In this document: positions 243-56,318 of the stretch, piece after piece
Position numbering within the stretch: the stretch's first letter is position 1
Layout of the letters: every line of letters starts with the position of its first letter
IMG/VR virus record: IMGVR_UViG_3300029309_000010
Span: 1-64,000 of that record
DNA length: 64,000 bases
Direction: 5' to 3' (one strand)
Source of the DNA: a virus
Notes under the pieces: generated by a model
What the model was told of the DNA's origin: nothing
The model's input: only the letters and a program-made list of their open reading frames with translations
The model's database searches: none
Program-made: the position numbers and the translations under genes

Positions 243-399
243 TGTTGAATCTTAATTTAACACTTTCCCAAAACTTATCGGGATCAGTAGAAGAGTATCG
301 CTTTTTCAGCTTATTGTAAAGCTTTTTGTGGATTGGATTTGGATTTTTTTTATCATATCCAATTAACTGTCTGAGTCTTTTGGCGGCAGATCCACTCAT
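235..399 (-). CDS. Small basic protein, unknown function
   Basis: The frame starts at ATG 399 and encodes 54 residues beginning MSGSAAKRLRQLIGYDKK and ending FNNE. The ATG overlaps the TGA of the Clp-type ATPase gene (ATGA), and its own stop overlaps the start of the next gene. It therefore fits the operon's overlapping layout exactly, which is the main reason to accept so short a gene. It is lysine/arginine-rich, and tryptophan occurs once (DKFWES). I recognise no family. Confidence 0.55.
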   Translation of the reverse strand: MSGSAAKRLRQLIGYDKKNPNPIHKKLYNKLKKRYSSTDPDKFWESVKLRFNNE

Positions 400-2738
400 G
401 ATTTATGATCGTCATGAATACGATGTTTTTCAATTAAAAGTTGGATTTTTTTATTGCCGTCTAATATAGAACTAGAAACATAAGGCGTTATTTCTGAAAG
501 TATTTTTTTGTTCAGAGCCTCTATCTTAACTTTTTCATTAGATAAGCTATCTATGATTGATTTTATGTATTTAAAATCAAAATTAAGTTCTATGTCACTG
601 TCTTTGAGTCTGTTCTTAAGTCTCTTAAGTTTCATCCAAAGTATTCTCCTAAGACCTCTTTCATCTATTTCCTTCAACGGAAAGCACTCATCAACGTGCT
701 TCAATATATCTGGATGAATCATGAGATTATCTTTGTCTGATTTGGCTTCTTGAAAGCCCATAGATGATTGGCTATTAGACAGATCACTTGTTAGAAAGAT
801 AATGCAATTAGTGAAATCAGCCATATCACCATTGTTCATCTGAAACCTACCATCCTTAAATATTTGATTAAATAAGGGTATAGAAGAGTTATCTACTTTG
901 TGAAAATCATCTATGATAATGACACTATTTGGAGTAATTAAAACTTTCTCGCAAAGAGATGTATTATTACCCTGAGAGGTTGCTATCTTGTGAGGGGCAT
1001 ACAAATCAGCAAAATGCACACCACTGTATGAAAGAACATTTACTCCATGTTTTTGTAACGTATCTTTGAATATATCGAGGAAGTAAGACTTGCCACTGAA
1101 CTTAGATCCGCTAACAACATAACAGTCAGGAGAAGAGAAATTGTCTGTTTTTCTAATACCAAGAGAAGATAAAGTTATTTTCTCTTTTAGGTTTTTGAGG
1201 AGTTCTTTTTGTCCGACTATTGACTTCTCAATGCACTTAAAGCACTTGTCTATGAGGACCGTATTACTCAATGGGTTTCTTTTTTTAGAGAAGAAGTCCT
1301 TTAAATGTGAAAGCTTTACTTCTGGTTTTTCTTCTGGGACACCCTCTGTCCATTTCTCTAGGCTATCATTAAGTCTTTCTAAAAGCTCTGTGTGATCTTT
1401 TTCTGGATCTAGGGCAGCTTGCATTGTCTCCACCTGTATCTCTTTTATAGATGGTGTAACATGCCAAAAATTAACTTTAGCCTGTGCTCCGCAGTGATCT
1501 ATTATGTCAATCGCTTTGTCAGGATAAAATTTGTTAGGTATATACTTTTCACAGTAGTCTATAATATTATCCAAGAAAGAATCAGTATATTTGACTGTGT
1601 GAAATTTTTCGTAATATGAAGCAATAGTGGGAAGAATTTCCTCCATCTCAAATCTAGAGGGTTCTCTGATGATAATTCTCTCAAATCTACGATCTAAAGC
1701 AGTATCTCTCTTGATAGTATTTGTATATTCGTTGATTGTAGTAGCGCCAATGCAACTAATTGTTCCTCTGGCAAGTTCTGGTTTAAGTATGTTAGAAGCT
1801 TCTAGAGAATTGCTAGTAGCTCCTCCAGCACCTATCAACGTGTGGACCTCATCAATAAATAAAATTAGATTAGTATATTTCTTTGCTTCATTTACAAAGT
1901 CCTCTAAGCGTTTTTCAAACTGACCTCTGTATTCTGTGCCAGCTACCATGCTAGATAAGCTAACAGAATATATAACTTTATTAGCTATAAGCTCTGGAGC
2001 ATCACCCATAACTATTTTATTAGCTAACCCCTCTACGAGAGACGTTTTTCCAGTCCCCGCTGGACCAACTAAAAGTGCATTTGGCTTTTTCTTTCTACAA
2101 AGAGTTGTAGACAGCTCATCCATCTTGCCATCAAAATCAACTATCTTGTCAAACTCTCCCTCTAAAGCTTTTAAGTTTAAATTTTCAGCAAATTGAGAAA
2201 GAATCTCGTTCTTATCAAACATGTCGATCCAGTCATCAGGCTTGTCAAGTGATAATCTATTTATATCATCTGATAATTCAAAATCCTTAGCTGTTAGAGA
2301 GCACTCGGTTATAAAGCCCAAAATAATGCAATCCGCTTCTTCGTTACCTTGTGGATAAAGTTTTTTAACAACCTTTGGCGCATGTTTTTCATCAAAAAAC
2401 ATCATCAGTGCTACCTCTGGAGGTATATAATCTAATTCAAAATTTTCTTTAGATATCTGCTCCGCTTCTTTTAATAACTTGCGTATATCTGTTTTAAGAG
2501 ATTTTGTAGAATTTTTATTTTTGCGCTTCTTGTTAAGAACTTCTCTAGATTCTTTTAATAAATCTCTAGGGTCAACATTTACTTTTTTAAATATGGTCGC
2601 ACAAGATTGACTCAAATCATTTAAGAAGCAGTGAAAAAATAAATCTATGTCTGCTCCATTTCTGTGCAAAATAGCCGAAAGCTCTCTGGTTTTTTCAAGA
2701 ACTCCTTCAATATGTGGAGTTAGGGGTAAACTAGGCAT
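396..2738 (-). CDS. Clp/ClpB-type AAA+ ATPase with two nucleotide-binding domains
   Basis: The 780-residue product resembles ClpA/ClpB/ClpC unfoldases. Residues 5-45 look like a shortened Clp N domain (LTPHIEGVLEKTRELS). The first AAA+ module has Walker A GPAGTGKT at 225-232, Walker B LILFIDEVHT at 291-300 and a likely arginine finger in ALDRRFER near 347. The second module has Walker A GSKFSGKS at 544-551 and Walker B VIIIDDFHK near 595. These proteins unfold or remodel protein complexes by pulling chains through a hexameric ring. No phage protease partner is visible. It follows the polymerase gene with an 8-base overlap and a strong ribosome site (GGGAGGTG), suggesting a role in replication or virion remodelling. 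Domain call is firm; substrate is unknown. Confidence 0.88.
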   Translation of the reverse strand: MPSLPLTPHIEGVLEKTRELSAILHRNGADIDLFFHCFLNDLSQSCATIFKKVNVDPRDLLKESREVLNKKRKNKNSTKSLKTDIRKLLKEAEQISKENFELDYIPPEVALMMFFDEKHAPKVVKKLYPQGNEEADCIILGFITECSLTAKDFELSDDINRLSLDKPDDWIDMFDKNEILSQFAENLNLKALEGEFDKIVDFDGKMDELSTTLCRKKKPNALLVGPAGTGKTSLVEGLANKIVMGDAPELIANKVIYSVSLSSMVAGTEYRGQFEKRLEDFVNEAKKYTNLILFIDEVHTLIGAGGATSNSLEASNILKPELARGTISCIGATTINEYTNTIKRDTALDRRFERIIIREPSRFEMEEILPTIASYYEKFHTVKYTDSFLDNIIDYCEKYIPNKFYPDKAIDIIDHCGAQAKVNFWHVTPSIKEIQVETMQAALDPEKDHTELLERLNDSLEKWTEGVPEEKPEVKLSHLKDFFSKKRNPLSNTVLIDKCFKCIEKSIVGQKELLKNLKEKITLSSLGIRKTDNFSSPDCYVVSGSKFSGKSYFLDIFKDTLQKHGVNVLSYSGVHFADLYAPHKIATSQGNNTSLCEKVLITPNSVIIIDDFHKVDNSSIPLFNQIFKDGRFQMNNGDMADFTNCIIFLTSDLSNSQSSMGFQEAKSDKDNLMIHPDILKHVDECFPLKEIDERGLRRILWMKLKRLKNRLKDSDIELNFDFKYIKSIIDSLSNEKVKIEALNKKILSEITPYVSSSILDGNKKIQLLIEKHRIHDDHKS

Positions 2739-5292
2739 CTTTCACCTCCCTCAATTTCATATATACATCTGTTTCTACTGGATTCACATTATCTACAAAA
2801 AATGTATTATTACTCTTAGATCCTGATATAACAATTACTTTACTTTTAGCGAGCTTATATTTGCTATCTAGAAAGTTTGTTAATCTAGCTTCTCTTTGAT
2901 TATCCATGAATAAGAATGTCTTTGTTGCTGTATTATCAGAGACTGATAGCATCATATATTTATTACCATTTTGAGATGTTCTTGTAAAGAAATCTTTTAC
3001 CTCACCAACAACTTGAAAGTTTTGCCGATCCACTAAATCTTCAACTTCTTTTAAATCAATCAGCGATGAAAACCTATCTTGGAAACATTCTCTAAGATTA
3101 TGAGAGTAACTATAACCAAGAAGAGAACTTTCATATCTCCATTTAGCAAACATTTCATGTTTCTTATTTTGATTATAAATCTTTTTATATTTATCAAACT
3201 TGGCTCTAAATGTTTTAAATCTTTTGTGAGACATTATAGGCTTATTGTCATCTCCAAGAGTTTGTTTTTCCAAAACCTCTGATATAGCATTTAGTATATC
3301 ATAGCCAAACCTTTCTCCTATTTTAGAGAAGTTTCTTTTTTCTCTGTCTGTTAGTAAGTTGAATGATTGAGCTTCTAGAACCATTCTGGTTCTATTAGTC
3401 TTGGTGTGATCCATAGTCCCAGCTTGAATTAGTGCTGATAAAACAGATATGTTTATACCACATTGCTTGGCAGCTACGAATACTTCGTATTTATTATTGA
3501 ATTCCATACCTCGGAAATCAATCAGGCTTTTTATTGATTTTAAAGATATGCCCTTGATACTGTTTAAGCCATATCTGATATTACCTTCCTCAATTGTAAA
3601 ATCAAAATCAGATTTAAAAAGGCATGGAGGCAACATACGCATGCCAAAATCAGATAGCTCTTCATTTACTCCAGATACTGTCTGCAAGGGTTCTGGGTCA
3701 AACTCGGCGCACTCTAAAATGGATAGGAAAAACTCCTGTGGATACTTGTGTTTTAAGTAAACGGTCTTAGCAGCAAGATCAGCATAAGCAAAGCTATGAG
3801 ATTTATTAAATGAGTAGTGAGACGCAGCAACCAGTGAGTTCCAATAGAAGTCACTGATTTCCTCATCAAGATTATTTTCTCTCCCCGCCTCATAAATCCT
3901 ATCTTTCCACTTGGGCATTTCATCAACCTTCTTTTTCCCTACGATCCTTCTCAATATCTCTGCTTCTTCAAGGGTAAGACCAAAAACTTTATGAGCAATC
4001 TGCATCAGCTGCTCTTGATATAGAATGACGTTTTTAGACCAAGAAAGTATGGTATCGAGTTCTTCGTTTAAATTAAGTTGAGATGGAAACTCTTTTTGTG
4101 TTTTATAAACACTAACAAATTCTAAAGCTGCTGGTCTAGCTAGAGCAACAACATCTGAAAGTTCATTTATATCAGCTGGCTTTATATCTTTACAAACTTT
4201 AAAGTTTGTTTCAGCAGAAATCTGAAAAAGACCTATTGGATGTTTGAAGTCCTGCAATATCTCATAGATCATCTTGTCATTTGGATCTATGTCTTCAATA
4301 TCTATGCCGACTTTCTCGCAAGTCTTGTGAGCTATCGTTAAAGTTCTTAGACCTAATATATCAAACTTAACCATTAGGTCTGCCACATCAGACATATCAT
4401 ATCCTGTAACTAAGTCTCCATCTTTTGTTTTTTGTAGTGGAACTACATTTCCTATATCCTCTGAGCAGATAGCAATTCCAGAGGGATGGACTCCTGTGTT
4501 TTTAGGAAGGTTTTCTATCTTCAGTGCATTTTTGTAAGTCTTTTCATGTTTTTTTACCCATGATCTAAATTTATCTGACTCTTCTTTTGCTTGTGACAAA
4601 GGGAATACTTTACCATGCAGTTTTGGTATCATATCTGACACCTGATTAGCCTCGTCTTCTTTAGCCTCATCAAAATATTTAGTAGCCTCTCGTATGCAGA
4701 GTTTAGAGCTAAAAGTATTGAATGTAAGAATCTTGGCTGTTCTACCTTCATGTTTTCTTTCAATATATTCTATGACCTTATGTCTTTGATCATAAGATAT
4801 ATCCGAGTCAACATCAGGAAGTAAGCTGCCGACTAAGAATTCCTTACCTCGTTTATCGGTCACAGTCTTTGCCCTAGATTTAGATACAAATCTTTCAAAG
4901 AATAGATCGTGAGGTATGGGATCAATATTTGTTACTCCAAGGAGATATAATACAAGAGAGCCAGCAGCAGAACCCCTGCCAGCACCAGTTGGAATGTTAT
5001 TGTCATGACAAAAATTTAGAACGTCCCAGTTAAGTAAAATGTAGTCCGTGAATCCAAGCTCCTCAAAAGTCTCAAGCTCTTGTTTTGCTCTTTGATAGTA
5101 ATCGTTTTTATTTTCATATTTAGTTATGCCTTTATCTCTCAAGCCTTTTCTGGCTAGTTCATATAATATATCTTTAGTTGAGCTATCTGGACCAAGCCCG
5201 ATCTCTTTTAGCTTTTTAAGATCAACAATTGTTTTAGGTAGCTCTACACCCGCAGGTTCACAATCGTCATATATTGTAAAGTCTTCAAACAT
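2731..5292 (-). CDS. dnaE: DNA polymerase III alpha subunit, catalytic core (lacks PHP domain)
   Basis: This C-family replicative polymerase core carries GRGSAAGS near residue 105, the catalytic aspartates in PDVDSD near 160, and a third in FDILGLRTL. The finger, helix-hairpin-helix and OB-like regions follow. I chose ATG 5292, which overlaps the exonuclease stop as TAATG and gives 853 residues. A GTG at 5337 would add 15. The protein begins where the palm region of DnaE begins. The PHP domain that normally precedes it is encoded separately two genes upstream, with a DnaQ-type exonuclease between. Together the three genes probably form the phage replicase. Confidence 0.92.
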   Translation of the reverse strand: MFEDFTIYDDCEPAGVELPKTIVDLKKLKEIGLGPDSSTKDILYELARKGLRDKGITKYENKNDYYQRAKQELETFEELGFTDYILLNWDVLNFCHDNNIPTGAGRGSAAGSLVLYLLGVTNIDPIPHDLFFERFVSKSRAKTVTDKRGKEFLVGSLLPDVDSDISYDQRHKVIEYIERKHEGRTAKILTFNTFSSKLCIREATKYFDEAKEDEANQVSDMIPKLHGKVFPLSQAKEESDKFRSWVKKHEKTYKNALKIENLPKNTGVHPSGIAICSEDIGNVVPLQKTKDGDLVTGYDMSDVADLMVKFDILGLRTLTIAHKTCEKVGIDIEDIDPNDKMIYEILQDFKHPIGLFQISAETNFKVCKDIKPADINELSDVVALARPAALEFVSVYKTQKEFPSQLNLNEELDTILSWSKNVILYQEQLMQIAHKVFGLTLEEAEILRRIVGKKKVDEMPKWKDRIYEAGRENNLDEEISDFYWNSLVAASHYSFNKSHSFAYADLAAKTVYLKHKYPQEFFLSILECAEFDPEPLQTVSGVNEELSDFGMRMLPPCLFKSDFDFTIEEGNIRYGLNSIKGISLKSIKSLIDFRGMEFNNKYEVFVAAKQCGINISVLSALIQAGTMDHTKTNRTRMVLEAQSFNLLTDREKRNFSKIGERFGYDILNAISEVLEKQTLGDDNKPIMSHKRFKTFRAKFDKYKKIYNQNKKHEMFAKWRYESSLLGYSYSHNLRECFQDRFSSLIDLKEVEDLVDRQNFQVVGEVKDFFTRTSQNGNKYMMLSVSDNTATKTFLFMDNQREARLTNFLDSKYKLAKSKVIVISGSKSNNTFFVDNVNPVETDVYMKLREVKDA

Positions 5293-5906
5293 TACAGGTC
5301 CATGTGTTTCTTTAGTTTTAAGAAGATTTGGTAACACATTTTTATATCATAAAGAGCATCATGAAGTTTATCTTCATCAAAATCTATATCGAAAAATTTC
5401 AATAGTTGATTTTGAGAAACTTTAGCCTTAAGTGTCCTATCATTTATGATTTTGTATTGCCAGCTAAGGAGATTGCCCTTCGGTCTATCAAGCTCCTCCC
5501 TGTATGCCTTAGCTAAAGCCCTTGTGTCGTATATTCTAGGCAAGTAAGAATAGTCTGGGGTTTGACCAAGCATCCGTTGCAGAGCTGCAATCATATATAC
5601 ATCAAAACCCAACAAGTTTTGACCAACTACAATGTATTGAGGGTCAAATATATACTTCTCAAACTTAGACCAAACTTGTGATAAAGATTTACTCTTTTTG
5701 CTATATGTCTCCCAATTAAATCCTGTTACTCTTTTTGCCCCCTCTGAAACATTTAGATGCTTGTGAGCTATAAACTCATCGTGAGTTTCTAAGATTTTTG
5801 ACCCCTGACAAATTATCCAAGACAACTGCCAAGTCTTTGACGAGTGTAGATTTAAGCCCTCTGTCTCTGTATCAAAGACAAGATATTTTTGATTACTTGG
5901 CAACAT
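5292..5906 (-). CDS. DnaQ-type DEDDh 3'-5' exonuclease (proofreading)
   Basis: The 204-residue protein shows Exo I as FDTETEGLN (D12, E14), Exo II as GQNLLGFDVY and Exo III as HDALYDIKM near residues 182-190, the DEDDh set of catalytic residues. This family removes mismatched 3' nucleotides for C-family polymerases. The gene lies between the PHP-like gene (14-base overlap) and the polymerase core (TAATG overlap). It is very likely the proofreading subunit of this split replicase. Confidence 0.88.
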   Translation of the reverse strand: MLPSNQKYLVFDTETEGLNLHSSKTWQLSWIICQGSKILETHDEFIAHKHLNVSEGAKRVTGFNWETYSKKSKSLSQVWSKFEKYIFDPQYIVVGQNLLGFDVYMIAALQRMLGQTPDYSYLPRIYDTRALAKAYREELDRPKGNLLSWQYKIINDRTLKAKVSQNQLLKFFDIDFDEDKLHDALYDIKMCYQIFLKLKKHMDL

Positions 5907-6591
5907 TTTCTAAAAAAGATTCGTAACTAAATTCATTAGAGCAAAAGTCATTGAGTCTTGGATTGCTGTAACTTGGGACTCTTCCTTGTTTTCTGGAGCA
6001 CACAGCCTTATACATTTGAAATGCCTCAAAGTCATCTTTATCTCTGTAATATATGCTTTTTGCCCTCTCTGTTTTTACTTTCATTTTTTTAAGCACAGCA
6101 CTGATTTGAAAATCAAAAGGATGGTTGTTAGATTCCTCTATGTAAAAGTGATCATACTTTTTTAAAGACAGGTCACACATGCCAAAATGAAAAATGTTAT
6201 TGTAAACATAAGAGTCATAAAACGGAACTCCAATGCTAATTTCTTCTAGCTCATCATCTTGTATTTTAGAAAGATTTAAACAGTCGCCCTCACTAGCATA
6301 ACATTTAGTATATAGTTTTCTAGCATTATTTACTCCTTTGTTGTTTTTGGGGAAAAATATCAATTTACTAGCTTGTTCAGATAAATTTGATTGAACAACA
6401 GGAAGCTTAACACCGTAGACTAGGGGAACCCCAATATTAAGAAAGGCTTTGTTGACAACTCTAAATCCATAGAAGTTATCCTCTACTAAGATCATTCTCT
6501 TTACATCTCCAGACTGAGCTATATCAACTAGATCCTCAACCCTCAACAGAGACCTGCCTATGCTAAAAGTGCTCTTAAATAATGGTATCAC
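5893..6591 (-). CDS. Degenerate PHP-domain protein, N-terminal part of a split DnaE
   Basis: The 232-residue product follows the DnaE PHP pattern. FKSTFSIGRSLLRVEDLVDIA matches the (H)xHTxxSxLDG..rieeLv region, RMILVEDNFYGFRVVNKA matches the aALTDhgnlfG strand, and the C-terminal part resembles the segment before the palm. The metal-binding His-x-His is replaced by Phe-Lys-Ser, so PHP phosphoesterase activity is probably lost. The start is GTG at 6591; no in-frame ATG lies nearby, and GGGG immediately precedes it. Gene order PHP, exonuclease, polymerase makes a structural subunit of the replicase the likely role. Recognition is by pattern only. Confidence 0.6.
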   Translation of the reverse strand: MIPLFKSTFSIGRSLLRVEDLVDIAQSGDVKRMILVEDNFYGFRVVNKAFLNIGVPLVYGVKLPVVQSNLSEQASKLIFFPKNNKGVNNARKLYTKCYASEGDCLNLSKIQDDELEEISIGVPFYDSYVYNNIFHFGMCDLSLKKYDHFYIEESNNHPFDFQISAVLKKMKVKTERAKSIYYRDKDDFEAFQMYKAVCSRKQGRVPSYSNPRLNDFCSNEFSYESFLENVAK

Positions 6592-6600
6592 CCCCTGAAA

Positions 6601-7641
6601 TTACAGAAGTTCTATACGCTTGTCAAATGAAAATGCAGGACATCCCTCATATTTTGCCTTCTCTATTGTTAAGCCATTTTTTACCCTATCAGCAAGAGTT
6701 TCTCGTTCATCGGCAGAGGCTACCCAGTCTCCTTTTTCATTGACTAAAACATAGTAGTCTCTGGGGAACTTAAATGGACAATGCCACATTGGAGTGCCAT
6801 CTTTTTTTAACTGTCCAGCATAGTCTGCTCTCCCACACACAACCCTACCCGCAAACCCAGCATCTCTGTCCATGTAACCCTTATCATACGCTAGATTTTT
6901 AGAAGCTATTTTTACATTATAATTATTAATAATTTGCTGAACCTCTGTAAGAAAATATTCAAACCCTTCTAGTTCATCATTATCTAACGGTTCCATGCTG
7001 CAACAACCGTCATTGTTACAATCAAACTTAAGAAACAAAAACTCCATCTTTCGTTTCATGAACTCTGGATAAAGATGCTTGACTGCAAGGCAATACATCA
7101 GATTTTGCATATTGTCTGTGTATTCTTTGCCTGAAAAAATCTGCTTAGATGTCTTAAAATCCCTAATTATTGCGACCTTTTTTCTCTTAAATAGGAATAA
7201 TTTATCAATAAAACCCAATATTCTGTAGTTTTTACCATCTTCTGTCACAGATATGTCGAAATCTTTCTCGCTTATTGACTCAGTAGGTTTGCCATCTTTG
7301 TCGCCAAAAAAGTCATAATTTAAACCTTCTACTGTCATCTGATTTATGAGGTCCATGTTCTCAAAATCATCTATTTGATGCTTTTTGGCATAAGCCTCCA
7401 CCATTCTCTTGATAGGTGGAGAGGCGTAAGTGTTTTGGGTTTTTACAATCCTAGTATAATGCTTCTTGTGTCTAGGATTACCAAGATTTTCAAATATAGC
7501 ATGACATATAGTGCCTCTTAAGCTACCCTCATTTGATTTATCAGGTAGCTTAAGATGATATTTGCACCAATATTGCCAAGAGCAGGTCTGTAGGGTTTTT
7601 ATCCGTGATGCAGAAAGAGGTTTATTATCAGAATTCTGCAT
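6601..7641 (-). CDS. PD-(D/E)XK (RecB/Cas4-like) nuclease
   Basis: The 346-residue protein starts with LSASRIKTLQTCSWQYWCKYHLKLP, typical of the RecB-family nuclease fold. It has GTICHAIFE (His/Glu of motif I) and GFIDKLFLF followed by AIIRDFKTSK, the D...DxK active-site pair, then a helix with QNLMYCLA. Cysteines at the N-terminal end and near the C-terminus could bind an iron-sulfur cluster as in Cas4/AddB, but this is only a possibility. It sits between the PHP-like gene and primase, so a role in recombination or DNA end processing during replication is likely. Confidence 0.8.
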   Translation of the reverse strand: MQNSDNKPLSASRIKTLQTCSWQYWCKYHLKLPDKSNEGSLRGTICHAIFENLGNPRHKKHYTRIVKTQNTYASPPIKRMVEAYAKKHQIDDFENMDLINQMTVEGLNYDFFGDKDGKPTESISEKDFDISVTEDGKNYRILGFIDKLFLFKRKKVAIIRDFKTSKQIFSGKEYTDNMQNLMYCLAVKHLYPEFMKRKMEFLFLKFDCNNDGCCSMEPLDNDELEGFEYFLTEVQQIINNYNVKIASKNLAYDKGYMDRDAGFAGRVVCGRADYAGQLKKDGTPMWHCPFKFPRDYYVLVNEKGDWVASADERETLADRVKNGLTIEKAKYEGCPAFSFDKRIELL

Positions 7642-8674
7642 AATGGAATTTGTTTTTCTTCACAAGTTTTGCAAAAGATGAGGAAAAACTCTTATTGACA
7701 CCCCTATCATTCATTTTTTTGGCTATACTAATAATATTATCCATAGAATCACTATGCTTCATATTATAACACTCAGAGCTGTATTTTTCTATTTGCTCTG
7801 CGCTCATCTCTCCAAAGTCATTTTTTTCTGGTGGACTAAAATAAATTTTATCAAAGTCAATTGAATCAACCAACTTAAAAACAGATTTAATAGCTCCTTC
7901 AAAACCTCTATTTACAGAGGATGAATGATCATTATTGAATGATATAAATATCTTGCTCACTGGGAGCATAGATAGCCTTGATATGAATTTAGGAGATATA
8001 TTCAAGCCAAATGAAACTAAAACATTTTTTACCCCACTGTTGTATAGAGATAAGCAGTCACCAACAGACTCGACTATATGAACGGATTGCTTCTCTAGTA
8101 TAGATTCTTGAACACGCTTTATGTTGTAGTATGGGTAAAACCAGTTAGATGATTTGCCCATATGCAACCATTTTGGTCTATCATCATCTGTAACCTTTCT
8201 TCCTGAAAAACCGTGAATTCTACCGTCTTTCCTGAATATAGGAAAGATGACACGCTGATACATCTTCCCTGACATGGCTAAACCGCATTTAAAATCCTGT
8301 AATGTCTCTTTAGACATGCCTTTACCAATGTAAAAATCATGATGAGGCAGTAACTTTTGTAAGACATTAGGTGGGTATGTTTTTTCCTCTTTCAATAAGT
8401 GCTTTTGCTTTATTCTTGCACCTATATTTACACCATTATCCTTTAAATAGTGCTTTACCGCATTAGGATCTTTTGTATTTAGAGTCTTTTGAAGAAGCGC
8501 TTCAAAAGGCATGAAAGATGAGTCTTCTACATAGTCTTTCCAGACCCCTGTATCTTTATATATTTGCAATGCTGTAGAGTTATCACCAGATCTATATACT
8601 GCGTTTGTTCTCCAGTATGATCCATGATCTTTAAGGCGATAACCAAGATTTTCTAAAACCTCTTTATAGTTCAT
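7628..8674 (-). CDS. DNA primase with TOPRIM domain (DnaG-like)
   Basis: The 348-residue protein has an N-terminal region with WRTNAVYRSGDN, a weak counterpart of the primase nucleic-acid-binding start. A catalytic-core N part (VIFPIFRKDGRIHGFSGR) follows, then a TOPRIM segment, HIVESVGDCLSLYNSGVKNVLVSFG. The TOPRIM glutamate is present, while the usual DxD appears as NND (FISFNNDHSS). A classical CHC2 zinc finger is absent. It makes RNA primers for the fork and overlaps the DnaB helicase gene as TAATG, a common primase-helicase pairing. Confidence 0.8.
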   Translation of the reverse strand: MNYKEVLENLGYRLKDHGSYWRTNAVYRSGDNSTALQIYKDTGVWKDYVEDSSFMPFEALLQKTLNTKDPNAVKHYLKDNGVNIGARIKQKHLLKEEKTYPPNVLQKLLPHHDFYIGKGMSKETLQDFKCGLAMSGKMYQRVIFPIFRKDGRIHGFSGRKVTDDDRPKWLHMGKSSNWFYPYYNIKRVQESILEKQSVHIVESVGDCLSLYNSGVKNVLVSFGLNISPKFISRLSMLPVSKIFISFNNDHSSSVNRGFEGAIKSVFKLVDSIDFDKIYFSPPEKNDFGEMSAEQIEKYSSECYNMKHSDSMDNIISIAKKMNDRGVNKSFSSSFAKLVKKNKFHYAEF

Positions 8675-10212
8675 TAAGCTCTGAGATTTATAGGTATTTC
8701 ATCTGAGTCGTTTGTATGAACTTCAATACCCCCTCCATTAAATGCGTTGACTATATCTTGAAGATCTCCACACTCAGTGATTCTAAAGTTTTCAACATTT
8801 AAATTAATAAAATTCTGTCTCTTGGAACCATCTGGCATTTCTACTGGGTGAATAGCTCGTAATGCATCTCGACCTAGATGTCTAGCCTTTAAGTTTATCA
8901 GCTTATGTGTTCCAAAGTTAGCGCCCTCTTCATGTATCTCATCAGCAACCTTTCTTCTAAGCAGGAAAAGGTGGGAGCAAAACTGTGTGATCCCGTCAGA
9001 AAGTGACACAACACTTTCATCGTCCACAATTGAACCAGCAGCTCTGTTGTTTGTAATTCCAAGTCTGTTAGATTGCACAGAGGTCAACATTGATACACAA
9101 GGCTTGCCGTCAAACGACAAGTCTCTTTGTATGGTTTGCTTGAATTTATGAACCAAATAAGAAACTTGCTGCCACCCATCCACTTTCCCGATACTACCAA
9201 AGTCACTCTTAATATAATCAAAACTAAAAATAAGTTCGTTGCCCCTACCTATTTTTGAAAAGTAAAATCTTTTAAGCAGGGAACACATTTCATCAGGAGA
9301 AAGACCAGCCACATTCTCATAATAAAATTTCATGTTTTTGATTTTATTCCATGCAGACCTAACCTTGGCTACAACCTGCTCTGAGGTCCAGTCTTTGTAA
9401 GAAGTTGTTCTCCACTTGCCAGTTTGCAAAAGCCAAACAGGTATTCCAGTCATAGCAGAGCACTGCCTAAAGATAAGTTCCTCTTCACTCATCTCTCCAT
9501 TGTCAAAATGAAGAACTGGGACTCCATGTTCAGCAGAAACTTTAGTCGTAAAATCCATGCAGAAGTTCGTCTTACCGACTCCTGATCTAGCAACGATAAC
9601 AGAGATGTTCCCAGCAAGCAATAAAGACCCATACATCTCGTTGATGCGCTTGTGAGGACCAAGCATGCCAAAGTCCTCAACTGGATTGTTACCACGCTCT
9701 TCAACAACCTCTTCCATCATATCAAAAAGATTGACTGGTCCAGCCTCAGTCATTTCAAAATCTTTTATGTTCTTATTATATATCTGGTCAGACTGCTCAA
9801 TAATATCGCCATATTTAAGATTTGGGTCGGCGCTCTTTACAAAAGAGGCAACCTTTTTGCAGCTTGTGTATATTTCTCTACGAGCACTATACTTTTTAAG
9901 TTCTTTGACTGAGCTTATGAATATGTCCTCCGTTATTTTGTAAAATGCTAACGAAAACACATACTCAGCGATATCGACACTATCGGGGAAGCTAGCTTTT
10001 AGCTGCTGTATCCTTTGAACTAGAATAGTTTCGTCGATTGTCTCTGCATTATCTAGTGCGTTTTTGAGAAGCTTGAATATAGAGACGTTTACCTTTGAGT
10101 CCTCAGAGTAGAAGTCACTGTCATTTAGATAGATAGAGATTTCCTCCCACTTATGCTGATGTTGTAATATGCCACTAAGAACCTTTTTTTCTAAATCAAA
10201 CGAGTAAATCAT
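8674..10212 (-). CDS. dnaB: Replicative DNA helicase, DnaB family
   Basis: The 512-residue product has a DnaB N domain (residues 1-110) and a RecA-like ATPase domain. Walker A is ARSGVGKT at 208-215, VLHFDNGEM corresponds to the FSLEM motif, and ITQFCSHLFLLRR lies near the C-terminus. It is the hexameric 5'-3' helicase that opens the fork. It is followed directly by the primase gene and preceded by recombination genes, which supports the assignment. Confidence 0.9.
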   Translation of the reverse strand: MIYSFDLEKKVLSGILQHQHKWEEISIYLNDSDFYSEDSKVNVSIFKLLKNALDNAETIDETILVQRIQQLKASFPDSVDIAEYVFSLAFYKITEDIFISSVKELKKYSARREIYTSCKKVASFVKSADPNLKYGDIIEQSDQIYNKNIKDFEMTEAGPVNLFDMMEEVVEERGNNPVEDFGMLGPHKRINEMYGSLLLAGNISVIVARSGVGKTNFCMDFTTKVSAEHGVPVLHFDNGEMSEEELIFRQCSAMTGIPVWLLQTGKWRTTSYKDWTSEQVVAKVRSAWNKIKNMKFYYENVAGLSPDEMCSLLKRFYFSKIGRGNELIFSFDYIKSDFGSIGKVDGWQQVSYLVHKFKQTIQRDLSFDGKPCVSMLTSVQSNRLGITNNRAAGSIVDDESVVSLSDGITQFCSHLFLLRRKVADEIHEEGANFGTHKLINLKARHLGRDALRAIHPVEMPDGSKRQNFINLNVENFRITECGDLQDIVNAFNGGGIEVHTNDSDEIPINLRA

Positions 10213-10442
10213 AAGTTTATGTCATCTTCTTTCTTATTCATCGCCAGCTCTATCAGCTTGCCTAATGCCATGTCAACACAAGGGTTTTCAGTCTTACTTG
10301 TCATACTCGGACACCCATCTTTATTTACATAGAATAACATAAATCCTTTGTTACCACCACTTGATGATCCAGATGAGTCGTATATTTTATCAAGCAAGGA
10401 TTGTGGCAATCCTCCTGATGAATCTTCTTGCTCTAATCGCAT
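10209..10442 (-). CDS. Small unknown protein of the replication operon
   Basis: The 77-residue product has a serine/glycine-rich stretch (SSGSSSGG) followed by FMLFYVNKDGCP and ends in an acidic tail (KKEDDINL). It overlaps both neighbours by a few bases. No catalytic motif is visible. It may be a helicase-associated or loader-like accessory factor, but only its position suggests this. Confidence 0.6.
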   Translation of the reverse strand: MRLEQEDSSGGLPQSLLDKIYDSSGSSSGGNKGFMLFYVNKDGCPSMTSKTENPCVDMALGKLIELAMNKKEDDINL

Positions 10443-10855
10443 GTTAAATTTTCAATAAGGTCTTTGGGGTATTTATCAGAATCAATTACATCTGATTCTA
10501 AAACTCTGATAAGCTTAATATTATTGATCTCACAAAAATACTCTTTTTTCTCATCTCTCTTGAGTTGCTCAAGAAAGTTTTGCCTAGAGTTGCTGTGAAA
10601 GAATTTATTAAACCTATAATGTTGATTTCCATCAACTTCTATAGCGACCTTAGTGGTAGCATTGTAGAAGTCAAGAGTCATTCTTGTCCCAGCAACAGGA
10701 AACTCTTCAAAGACAACATCAGCAAACCAATAAGGTTTTATTTGTTGTTTTACATCTTTTTGTATCCCGCTTTTGCAACCACCCTCCCAGTCAATCAAGT
10801 ATTTGCTGACGCTCTTTATTTTTCTCTCTCGACCATTAGCACACAGAAATGTCAT
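10433..10855 (-). CDS. Putative PD-(D/E)XK endonuclease (Vsr/DUF559-like)
   Basis: The 140-residue protein has TLDFYNATTKVAIEVDGNQHY, then QLKRDEKKEYFCEINNIKLIRV. This is the D...ExD core with the basic helix and final strand seen in Vsr-like and DUF559-type nucleases and in some phage homing enzymes. It overlaps the recombinase gene by 20 bases. It could be a Holliday-junction or repair nuclease, or a free-standing homing endonuclease; the overlapping operon position favours the former. Confidence 0.7.
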   Translation of the reverse strand: MTFLCANGRERKIKSVSKYLIDWEGGCKSGIQKDVKQQIKPYWFADVVFEEFPVAGTRMTLDFYNATTKVAIEVDGNQHYRFNKFFHSNSRQNFLEQLKRDEKKEYFCEINNIKLIRVLESDVIDSDKYPKDLIENLTCD

Positions 10856-53512: not shown

Positions 53513-55405
53513 TCAAATCGCAAATGGAATAAATGTTCCTTGAGGTTTTTCTTCTACCGAGGCGTTTTCTGAATCAAAAAATACTTTCGCATACCAATTG
53601 CCTAAAACCAAAGCAGAATAAGAGTCTTTTCTAGCTCTATTAGGCCCTTTCTGTCTTCTGAGATTTTGAGGCAAGTTAAATGACTGAGACCCCTGTGGGT
53701 TAGCTATGACTTCAATGTTGGCACATTCTGACTTTGTAAGTTCAACAACATACTTTTGATGGTCAAGCAGGTCTATCATCATTGCACCTTTAGAAGCTTT
53801 GGGCGCTTTTATGTCCCATTTTAATTTATCAATAGGTATATTCTTTTTTCTCTGCTCATCAAAGTGAGAGTCTATCGCTCTAGAGGCAAATAATATTCTT
53901 CTATGGTCTATCGCTGCTTGTAACATCTCATTAGCGTTTCTAATCCAGTTGGATGTAGGTTTTCTGAGTATGCAGTAATTTTTTTCTCTTACGTTATATT
54001 GATTCTTAAATGAGATAACATCTGAGTTCCAGTTTTCTGGTTTTTCTAAATCAGCCTCTATAACCCCTATCTTAACACTTTTGGATTTAAATAGTGCGCT
54101 TTCGTTACAGGAGTTTATAAACTGGACTCCTCCATTATAGTCACCGCATATACCAACAATATTAAAATGTTCTATTAGATATAGGAAATACTCCATGTGG
54201 TGCTTTAGAGAAACACCAGCTATAGCATAGCTGTGAACTAAGCAGATCTTTTGAGTGTCTCTGTCTAACTTGAAAACGTGCATCGCAAAATGATCAGCAC
54301 TTGTGTTACCCGCCCAGTTGGGGTCAAACGATAACAAATATTCATCACTAGGATTACCCACCACCTCCACTGCTGGAAGTTCCCCATCAGGTATCGTGCA
54401 AGCCGCCATCTTTGATAATCTAAAGTAGCCATCACTTTCATCAATAAATTGTGCTCCAAACTCACGCTTGAACTGCATCTCGCTCATTGTAGCCTTCGCC
54501 TGTTTAAGCAGGTTTTGATCATACAATCTTGGCGGGGCGCAGTCGTAACTAAGCTGCATTATTAGTCTATAAGCATCATCTTTAAATGAGTCCTCCTCTT
54601 CACCTTCTTTTACAGATAATCCATGAATTAAGTCCTCATATTTTTTATATAACTTATACATATACTCAAACTTAAATGATGGAGATGAAAGAATTATTAA
54701 CTTGTTGTTAGGCCAAATATACCGATCATCTTCTGTCATCTCGCCTTTGTCGATTAATTTGGATTCTAAATTATACAACTCTTCCCTTTCGATAGGATTC
54801 TCTACCACACCAAGGAAAGGTATGATAACTTCATTGAAAATCTTTTCAGGGATTGTCAAAAACTCATCCAAGACAATTCTGTTGAATCGAAATCCACGCA
54901 ACCTCTCACCGTTAGCTAACGGCAGAGCTATCGCTCTAGCTTTGCCTAAAGTTAATGTCCATTGGTCAGTTCCCTTCTGTATTTTAAATCCACACTCTTT
55001 AATTAGGCTGGCTTCGGGTTTGCTAACAATATCCTCCATCTTTTGGAAGATTTGCTTTGATTGCCTAAAGCTACCTGCAATAACACCTATATTTGAATTA
55101 GGATTGAGTAGACACTCCAGTAGGACATAGATCGCGGTAGAGAACGTCTTAGACATACCACGCGAGAAAACGAACATGGAATAGTCTGACACCATCATGC
55201 CCTTGATAGCCATCGCTTGAAATGGGAATAGCTTAACTCCTAAGAATAGCTCAGAAGTAAATGCTATGTTGTTGCGTAAGAATTTGTATAGCAAATACTT
55301 CGCTTCTTCTTCTTTGATACCGCCATCAATCTCTTTTAGAAAATTGTTAAGCTCTTGAGAAGAATGCTCAAGACGATATCCTTGTTTTCCTTTTGTCCAA
55401 GACAT
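53513..55405 (-). CDS. terL: Terminase large subunit
   Basis: The 630-residue packaging motor has an ATPase domain with a Walker A-like SRGMSKT at 81-87 and a Walker B-like RIVLDEF near 175. Its RNase H-like nuclease has LSFDPNWAGNTSADHFA and GICGDYNGG, supplying acidic metal ligands. It translocates and cuts the genome at the portal. It overlaps the ERCC4-type nuclease gene by 38 bases, so the two are translated together. Confidence 0.9.
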   Translation of the reverse strand: MSWTKGKQGYRLEHSSQELNNFLKEIDGGIKEEEAKYLLYKFLRNNIAFTSELFLGVKLFPFQAMAIKGMMVSDYSMFVFSRGMSKTFSTAIYVLLECLLNPNSNIGVIAGSFRQSKQIFQKMEDIVSKPEASLIKECGFKIQKGTDQWTLTLGKARAIALPLANGERLRGFRFNRIVLDEFLTIPEKIFNEVIIPFLGVVENPIEREELYNLESKLIDKGEMTEDDRYIWPNNKLIILSSPSFKFEYMYKLYKKYEDLIHGLSVKEGEEEDSFKDDAYRLIMQLSYDCAPPRLYDQNLLKQAKATMSEMQFKREFGAQFIDESDGYFRLSKMAACTIPDGELPAVEVVGNPSDEYLLSFDPNWAGNTSADHFAMHVFKLDRDTQKICLVHSYAIAGVSLKHHMEYFLYLIEHFNIVGICGDYNGGVQFINSCNESALFKSKSVKIGVIEADLEKPENWNSDVISFKNQYNVREKNYCILRKPTSNWIRNANEMLQAAIDHRRILFASRAIDSHFDEQRKKNIPIDKLKWDIKAPKASKGAMMIDLLDHQKYVVELTKSECANIEVIANPQGSQSFNLPQNLRRQKGPNRARKDSYSALVLGNWYAKVFFDSENASVEEKPQGTFIPFAI

Positions 55406-56318
55406 TTATTCTATCGTTTATAAAAAATTGTAAATCAACATCCCATAGCTTATCGCCATGATATAAGATTCGCGGTATAATCTTCTTCGCGCCCGATCTA
55501 TTGTGCGCAAATATGATTTGTATGTTTTTGGGGTAGTCTATAATTAAGCTTCTTATGTTGTGCCATAGATAACCAAGATTAGACTTAAACTTGGAAGTCT
55601 TATTGTCTGTTTCTAGTTTGTCTATGGTTGTTTCTGCTACAACAAACATATATGACCCAAATTGAACACAACGATCCATCTCTCTCCTAAACCTCTCGAT
55701 GTCCTTGCCAAAGGTTTGCCTAAAGTCATCCTGTGACTTGCGGTCAACAAATGTTTTTGTATATAGGTCACCTCTGGCTGTATAATCGCCAAAGTCTAAC
55801 TTATTGGTAACAGAGTCCTTAAACTTGAGGGGAGCCTTCTCTCTAGTGTCTGTAAACAGAGGAATGGTAGAATAATCATACTTCCAGAAATCTTTTGGTA
55901 GATTTGACTTAAAGTAATTCTCTACTCCAATGTCATCCAAGAAACTAGAATAAGAACCCCAAATCTTCTTGTAGTCTGCTATGTTAGCCATATTGCACAA
56001 ATCATAATAAAGGTTCGGGGGCGATACCTTTATTTCTTTTAGCTCAAACTTTTCTTGCGCTTTCGCTTGTATGTATGTTTTGACATCCTCTCTTGGAGAC
56101 TCGTCAATCCAGAGCTTAAAATTACGGTGACTATTAAAGTCATCCCTAAAATACCTATCATAAGATTTGAAAGCAAGTTTTTCACCAGTGTATAAATCCT
56201 CCTTGTTATAATGCTTAACATAGTAATCACCTATGGTAAGCGTGTGAGCTTTTAGGTGCGCGTGGAAACTACGCTTGTTATCAAACTGTTTACCACATTC
56301 TAAACAAGTAAACTCCAT
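55368..56318 (-). CDS. C2H2 zinc finger plus ERCC4 (XPF-type) nuclease
   Basis: The 316-residue protein has an N-terminal zinc finger (FTCLECGKQFDNKRSFHAHLKAH, C2H2 type). After residue 150 comes an ERCC4 domain: TDTREKAPLKF, KLDFGDYTARG and FVDRKSQDDF, the DxRE...GDY...DRKS active-site pattern. Such enzymes cut branched or structured DNA. It lies between the small-terminase candidate and TerL with overlaps on both sides, so resolving branched DNA before packaging is a sensible role. Confidence 0.85.
   Translation of the reverse strand: MEFTCLECGKQFDNKRSFHAHLKAHTLTIGDYYVKHYNKEDLYTGEKLAFKSYDRYFRDDFNSHRNFKLWIDESPREDVKTYIQAKAQEKFELKEIKVSPPNLYYDLCNMANIADYKKIWGSYSSFLDDIGVENYFKSNLPKDFWKYDYSTIPLFTDTREKAPLKFKDSVTNKLDFGDYTARGDLYTKTFVDRKSQDDFRQTFGKDIERFRREMDRCVQFGSYMFVVAETTIDKLETDNKTSKFKSNLGYLWHNIRSLIIDYPKNIQIIFAHNRSGAKKIIPRILYHGDKLWDVDLQFFINDRINVLDKRKTRISS

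Follow-up and report, generated by a model that had tools for sequence, protein, structure and literature searches.

We report that three consecutive genes of an uncultured virus, encoding a PHP protein, a DnaQ-type exonuclease and a polymerase core, probably (at roughly 0.7) encode a single C-family (DnaE-type) replicase in separate parts, in which the PHP protein would be docked structurally and the DnaQ protein would provide proofreading. The genes are located in a stretch of 64,000 nucleotides (referred to as the window) that covers part of an 85,136-base IMG/VR virus record, and they are shared by an extensive lineage of uncultured, mostly marine phages. The case for a three-part replicase is based on homology, on the universal linkage and order of the three genes, on their being separate genes and on intact catalytic residues. 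What is new is that a domain regarded as strictly attached to the polymerase is cleanly separated from it across a widespread family; the enzyme chemistry is otherwise known.

The replication module and its three polymerase proteins

The module is encoded on the minus strand and comprises, in the order of transcription, genes for a DnaB-like replicative helicase (8674..10212; Pfam DnaB_C 1.3e-10, phrog_19 3.1e-31), a DnaG-type primase (7628..8674; DNAG_N 1e-7, phrog_47 4.8e-23), a PD-(D/E)XK nuclease (Cas4/RecB-like, 6601..7641; PDDEXK_1 1.4e-15), the PHP protein (5893..6591, 232 aa), the exonuclease (5292..5906, 204 aa) and the polymerase core (2731..5292, 853 aa). Helicase and primase thus belong to the replication module that contains the three polymerase genes, and synteny shows that the nuclease gene preceding PHP adjoins it in the distant clade of relatives too. 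The PHP and exonuclease frames overlap by 14 nt (5893..5906), while the exonuclease stop and the core start have one base in common in the sequence TAATG (5290..5294), a junction that is likely to provide translational coupling. These spacings are typical of the relatives: -14 nt is the most frequent PHP-exonuclease distance (161 fetched loci) and the exonuclease-core distance is -1 or -4 nt in 201 fetched loci. In the 85-kb record, which may be incomplete, neither an A- or B-family polymerase nor a sliding clamp (DnaN, gp45) was found.

Several other genes were noted in the record. Directly 3' of the core gene, with a start that overlaps the core end, lies the gene for a ClpA/ClpB-like double AAA+ protein (396-2738, minus strand; phrog_4871, E 4.9e-104). 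A 140-aa DUF559/homing-endonuclease-like ORF (10433-10855, minus strand) has a RecA-like recombinase on one side and the DnaB helicase on the other, and the product of 55368-56318 (minus strand), adjoining a terminase-like gene, combines an N-terminal C2H2 zinc finger with an ERCC4-type nuclease domain. Outside the window, at 69300-72576 of the record, we predicted a DenV-like pyrimidine dimer glycosylase (L114:5300-5767) and a RuvB-like AAA protein (L114:7620-8576).

The 232-aa product is a DnaE-type PHP domain, complete end to end. Its match to the Pfam PHP model (3.1e-5) is slightly below the Pfam cut-off, tblastn with the window protein against 50,697 phage records gave zero matches, and a profile search of PDB sequences returned only a chance match; since sequence-to-PDB searching was uninformative, fold and profile-profile comparisons were needed. 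Aligned by hhalign to the PHP domains of fused DnaEs, the protein matched with a probability of 99.0 (E 7.7e-18; 216 columns, residues 5-225). The AF2 model (pTM 0.74) was compared with the PDB using Foldseek, where ranks 1 to 18 were all DnaE alpha chains (best E 1.4e-9) and PolC reached only 0.06; in BFVD the named best matches were phage DnaEs. Together, alignment and fold place the end of the PHP protein at the helix following the PHP barrel and the start of the core in the pre-palm linker. The cut thus falls in the linker between PHP and palm, which is where the exonuclease gene is located.

For the core, Pfam identified DNA_pol3_alpha (3.5e-61), DNA_pol3_finger (2.9e-31) and HHH_6 (9e-17), and its architecture comprises palm, thumb, fingers, HhH and a C-terminal OB domain, without a tau-binding C-terminal domain. 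The N-terminal PHP domain is also absent, PHP being a separate ORF in all loci of the family. Compared with the PDB, the core profile matched DnaE (3e0d) at 7e-107 vs 2e-8 for PolC. Foldseek aligned the AF2 model (pLDDT 78, pTM 0.76), which has a C-terminal beta domain, with the DnaEs of M. tuberculosis, T. aquaticus and E. coli over approximately 840-880 columns, with matches to the OB fold. The catalytic aspartates D160, D162 and D311 (PDxD, KxD) and H499 of the FNKSH motif are kept in 96 of 96 non-redundant cores. Moreover, the full DnaE model phrog_405 is tiled piecewise by the PHP protein (50-289) and the core (316-1090) of relatives L270 and L043. No clear clamp-binding motif was seen by eye between HhH and OB in A1.

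The 204-aa protein matches RNase_T (Pfam, 9.1e-12) and the exonuclease subunit phrog_192 (1.2e-23), and its DEDDh residues D12, E14, D102, H182 and D187 are invariant in all 97 non-redundant exonucleases. The protein ends at most about 20 residues past the ExoIII motif in 23/23 aligned sequences, and it thus has no C-terminal tail. A bona fide epsilon is defined by such a tail, through which the E. coli protein binds the PHP domain of alpha (PMC3666897); any recruitment via PHP would in our case need a different surface. An earlier note, prepared from the letters of the window, had proposed separate overlapping genes for a PHP-like product, a DnaQ-type exonuclease and a core that begins where the DnaE palm begins, and each of these assignments is borne out by the comparisons above, including the PHP fold.

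The split family and its altered PHP protein

At least 511 core and at least 517 PHP relatives were recovered from IMG/VR. With respect to the window, core identity is 68-99% in the close clade, 51-66% in intermediates and 37-39% in the distant clade. The order PHP, exonuclease, core was found in all 265 fetched loci with a complete block, the few other loci being truncated at a contig end or at the edge of the fetched stretch, and two of the domains were never seen in a single ORF; the fetched loci overlap, with some contigs fetched repeatedly, and represent about 130 distinct sequences per protein. In some relatives inserts of 0.4-3.4 kb separate the parts, e.g. a LAGLIDADG gene (L036) or an RNA ligase gene (L168); the gap exceeds 2 kb between PHP and exonuclease in L168, and between exonuclease and core in L171 and L273. 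The presence of unrelated genes between the parts argues that the products are separate polypeptides.

Some core genes are themselves interrupted. In L036 (L036:5995-9042) the palm motif GRG|SAAGS is the insertion site of an intein, which is encoded by two ORFs approximately 100 nt apart (it starts with CFVSGQSV and ends with INGAAVHN; Pfam Intein_splicing/Hint in the N-half); this active-site intein is either naturally split or broken. The cores of L177, L186, L182, L185 and L191 consist of two ORFs cut after approximately residue 590, and in L177 and L186 an additional ORF is present there. The interruption looks like a mobile intron; an Rfam search of the interrupted cores of L177 and L186 did not find an intron.

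Independently of the profile searches, viral DnaEs were sampled by scanning for the motif FNKSHSxAY with TCN serine codons, which introduces some bias. Of the 80 viral loci obtained, 40 belong to the split family by score (394 bits in the truncated L370, >480 bits in the others). The gene start is visible in 30 of these family cores, and every one of the 30 lacks PHP, having at most 28 residues ahead of the core. Where a non-family DnaE gene is uninterrupted and its start is visible, the protein has an N-terminal extension of 188-499 residues, a length that matches a fused PHP, either alone or together with DnaQ. The non-family DnaEs of L352, L353, L361 and L366 are cut elsewhere, as in Cellulophaga phage phi19:2, and L321 is ambiguous in this respect. 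In bacteria and in every other sampled phage with an intact gene PHP is fused to the polymerase, and neither profile search nor motif scan detected a fused member within the clade.

An active DnaE PHP metal site has nine ligands, HHDHEH[C/H]DH (PMC12926913). We mapped these columns via the hhalign alignment to the PHP of fused DnaEs: none of the nine is left in the window, as suspected in the earlier note, and the loss extends across 110 non-redundant PHP proteins, where H7 is replaced by L/I/V, H9 by K/R, D16 by K/R/T, H41 by D/N/E, E66 by R/K and H88 by K, and the last three ligands C by F, D by S/T and H by Y/L/F. Only at H41 is the replacement a possible ligand, and four of the former ligand positions are uniformly or mostly basic (Lys/Arg) family-wide. 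The protein is accordingly predicted to be catalytically inactive. On the other hand, about 20 positions are invariant, and the new invariant or near-invariant residues include PFYDSY, N155, D160 and K178; this conservation suggests that fold and surface are maintained. PHP is nevertheless the least conserved of the three parts, with 26-28% identity between the two clades vs 36-39% for exonuclease and core, which suggests a loosely held partner surface.

These data bear on what the PHP protein does. There is some, though rather little, likelihood that it now serves as an exchangeable subunit and has acquired a new function, in which the conserved basic pocket at the former metal site would bind DNA, the exonuclease or a partner protein and PHP would thereby regulate switching between synthesis and proofreading; K6, R13, K62, K76, D126 and D160 are candidate residues of this pocket. 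It is also rather unlikely that it has left the replicase and become an independent phage protein of DnaE descent, e.g. DNA-binding or regulatory, with core and exonuclease being sufficient. The loss of the metal site with four positions changed to Lys/Arg, the fastest evolution of the three proteins and the genes that separate PHP from the exonuclease in some contigs would all be expected for a protein on its own path. Against this, every locus with enough flanking sequence has PHP as the first of the three genes, and the invariant positions include PFYDSY and N..PFD. Moreover, loss of the PHP metal site accompanies a separate exonuclease in bacteria, and in E. coli the polymerase is stabilised by its inactive PHP, such that known inactivation in DnaE goes with a structural role and not with loss (PMC3666897). 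The latter fits the structural PHP subunit that we propose.

Origin of the split and comparison with known polymerases

In three core trees the split cores are on one side of a branch with an SH-aLRT value of 100, with the fused phage and bacterial DnaEs opposite, and in one core tree L375 and L385, which had been set apart because their start is unclear, are also inside the split clade. With all fused DnaEs across this branch, the most parsimonious account is a single break-up. Among the fused DnaEs, L324, L334, L368, L369 and L387 form the closest group, a weakly supported sister (SH-aLRT 94-96) that holds both PHP-core and exonuclease-PHP-core fusions, and L369 retains, as judged by eye, the full set of PHP ligands. 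Single 1300-aa fusions with DnaQ at the N-terminus are encoded on the minus strand in L368 (L368:544-4560) and L387 (L387:3-3911). The DnaEs of L282, L284, L285 and L435, taken from phage records, are actually cellular DnaEs in contaminated or unverified records.

Several relatives of the split family were found in flavobacterial MAGs, and judged from the MAG contigs, marine flavobacteria and Bdellovibrionota would be the foremost host candidates. The cellular DnaE of the flavobacterial MAGs (1458-1461 aa) begins with a fused DnaQ domain, and the family could conceivably have arisen when such a host DnaE was split and rearranged. Flavobacterial DnaE and viral L368/L387 do have the same three domains in one locus, but fused and in the order exonuclease-PHP-core, i.e. 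with the exonuclease first. The core tree also sets the family apart from flavobacterial DnaE: a tree constrained to group the two is worse by 40 log units (p-AU 0.0375), a weak rejection. We consider this origin improbable.

The gene order PHP, exonuclease, polymerase is that of PolC, and the earlier note left open whether a DnaE or a PolC ancestor had been broken up. In PolC the OB domain is N-terminal to PHP. The split family, which consists of three genes, has the OB domain at the C-terminus of the core, and its close relative in both sequence and fold is DnaE, not PolC. Moreover, the PolC exonuclease is embedded within PHP and interrupts it (PMC3919608), whereas here PHP is a whole, undivided domain and the exonuclease gene occupies the junction between PHP and palm. 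Finally, no fused PHP-exonuclease-polymerase was seen among the approximately 130 distinct relatives or in the motif-based sample. The DnaE alternative thus stands, and descent from PolC or from a fusion in that order appears very improbable. With the E. coli-type system of DnaE plus epsilon the family shares a C-family core running from palm to HhH and OB, a degenerate PHP and a separate DEDDh exonuclease as proofreader. Unlike that system, PHP has its own gene, the exonuclease gene is adjacent and lacks the epsilon tail, the core lacks the tau-binding C-terminal domain, and metal-site positions are now Lys/Arg.

Among GenBank phages DnaE is mostly a single gene (Navo gp77, 1094 aa; VieEnRose, 1161 aa; Finch, 1063 aa), and where it is cut, as in KLEB27-3, phiT1 and phi19:2, the cut is inside palm or fingers. 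Cellulophaga phage phi19:2 (Cbastvirus; gp044/gp045) as well as L352 and L366 likewise have DnaE in two genes; unlike in the split family, the cut is within the palm region, with phi19:2 gp044 comprising PHP and the N-terminal part of the palm, and the DEDDh exonuclease gene of phi19:2 is located elsewhere. In Pbunavirus F8 the exonuclease gene is directly next to the DnaE gene with a 1-nt overlap, as in the split family, but it precedes a polymerase (1035 aa) to which PHP is fused. GenBank phages contained no core of the family (best approximately 33% identity), nor did we find a standalone PHP of the split-family type in them. We found no description of a split phage DnaE in the literature outside subscription journals. 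That the parts are joined into a single polypeptide by ribosomal frameshifting, or that the split is an assembly error, might be suspected from the short overlaps of 14 nt and 1 nt, but this is extremely unlikely given that about 130 distinct sequences, obtained from many samples, share their start and stop positions and that overlap lengths vary, and it is refuted for those relatives with up to 3.4 kb of unrelated genes between the parts.

A predicted three-subunit replicase

Taken together, we read the three genes as encoding what would be an obligate three-subunit replicase, with the dead PHP kept as a structural subunit; its assembly is a prediction from the sequences. A self-assembling replicase of three parts, as raised in the earlier note, is what best accounts for genes that always occur together and in one order. 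The ancestor would have been a fused PHP-polymerase; the break would have occurred in the helical linker that connects PHP to the palm, and the gene for the DnaQ exonuclease would have arrived at that site. In the present enzyme the core would polymerise, and the PHP protein, structural and without nuclease activity, would dock on palm and thumb of the core as in DnaE, with a Lys/Arg-Asp salt-bridge network possibly substituting for the PHP metals. The DnaQ protein would act as proofreader and be held close to the core, probably via PHP, and overlapping frames together with translational coupling may keep the amounts of the subunits in step. We suggest that the enzyme would be the main phage replicase, working with the adjacently encoded DnaB helicase and primase and using either the host sliding clamp or none.

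In bacterial replicative polymerases PHP is described as strictly conserved; it contributes to stability, to proofreading and to binding of the exonuclease, and its covalent attachment makes these contributions difficult to tell apart (PMC3666897). In the lineage described here, which makes up half (40/80) of the motif-based sample of viral DnaEs, PHP is naturally detached, and separately purifiable core, PHP and exonuclease would permit add-back tests of the role of PHP. The family also documents a path from a single polypeptide to a multi-subunit replicase.
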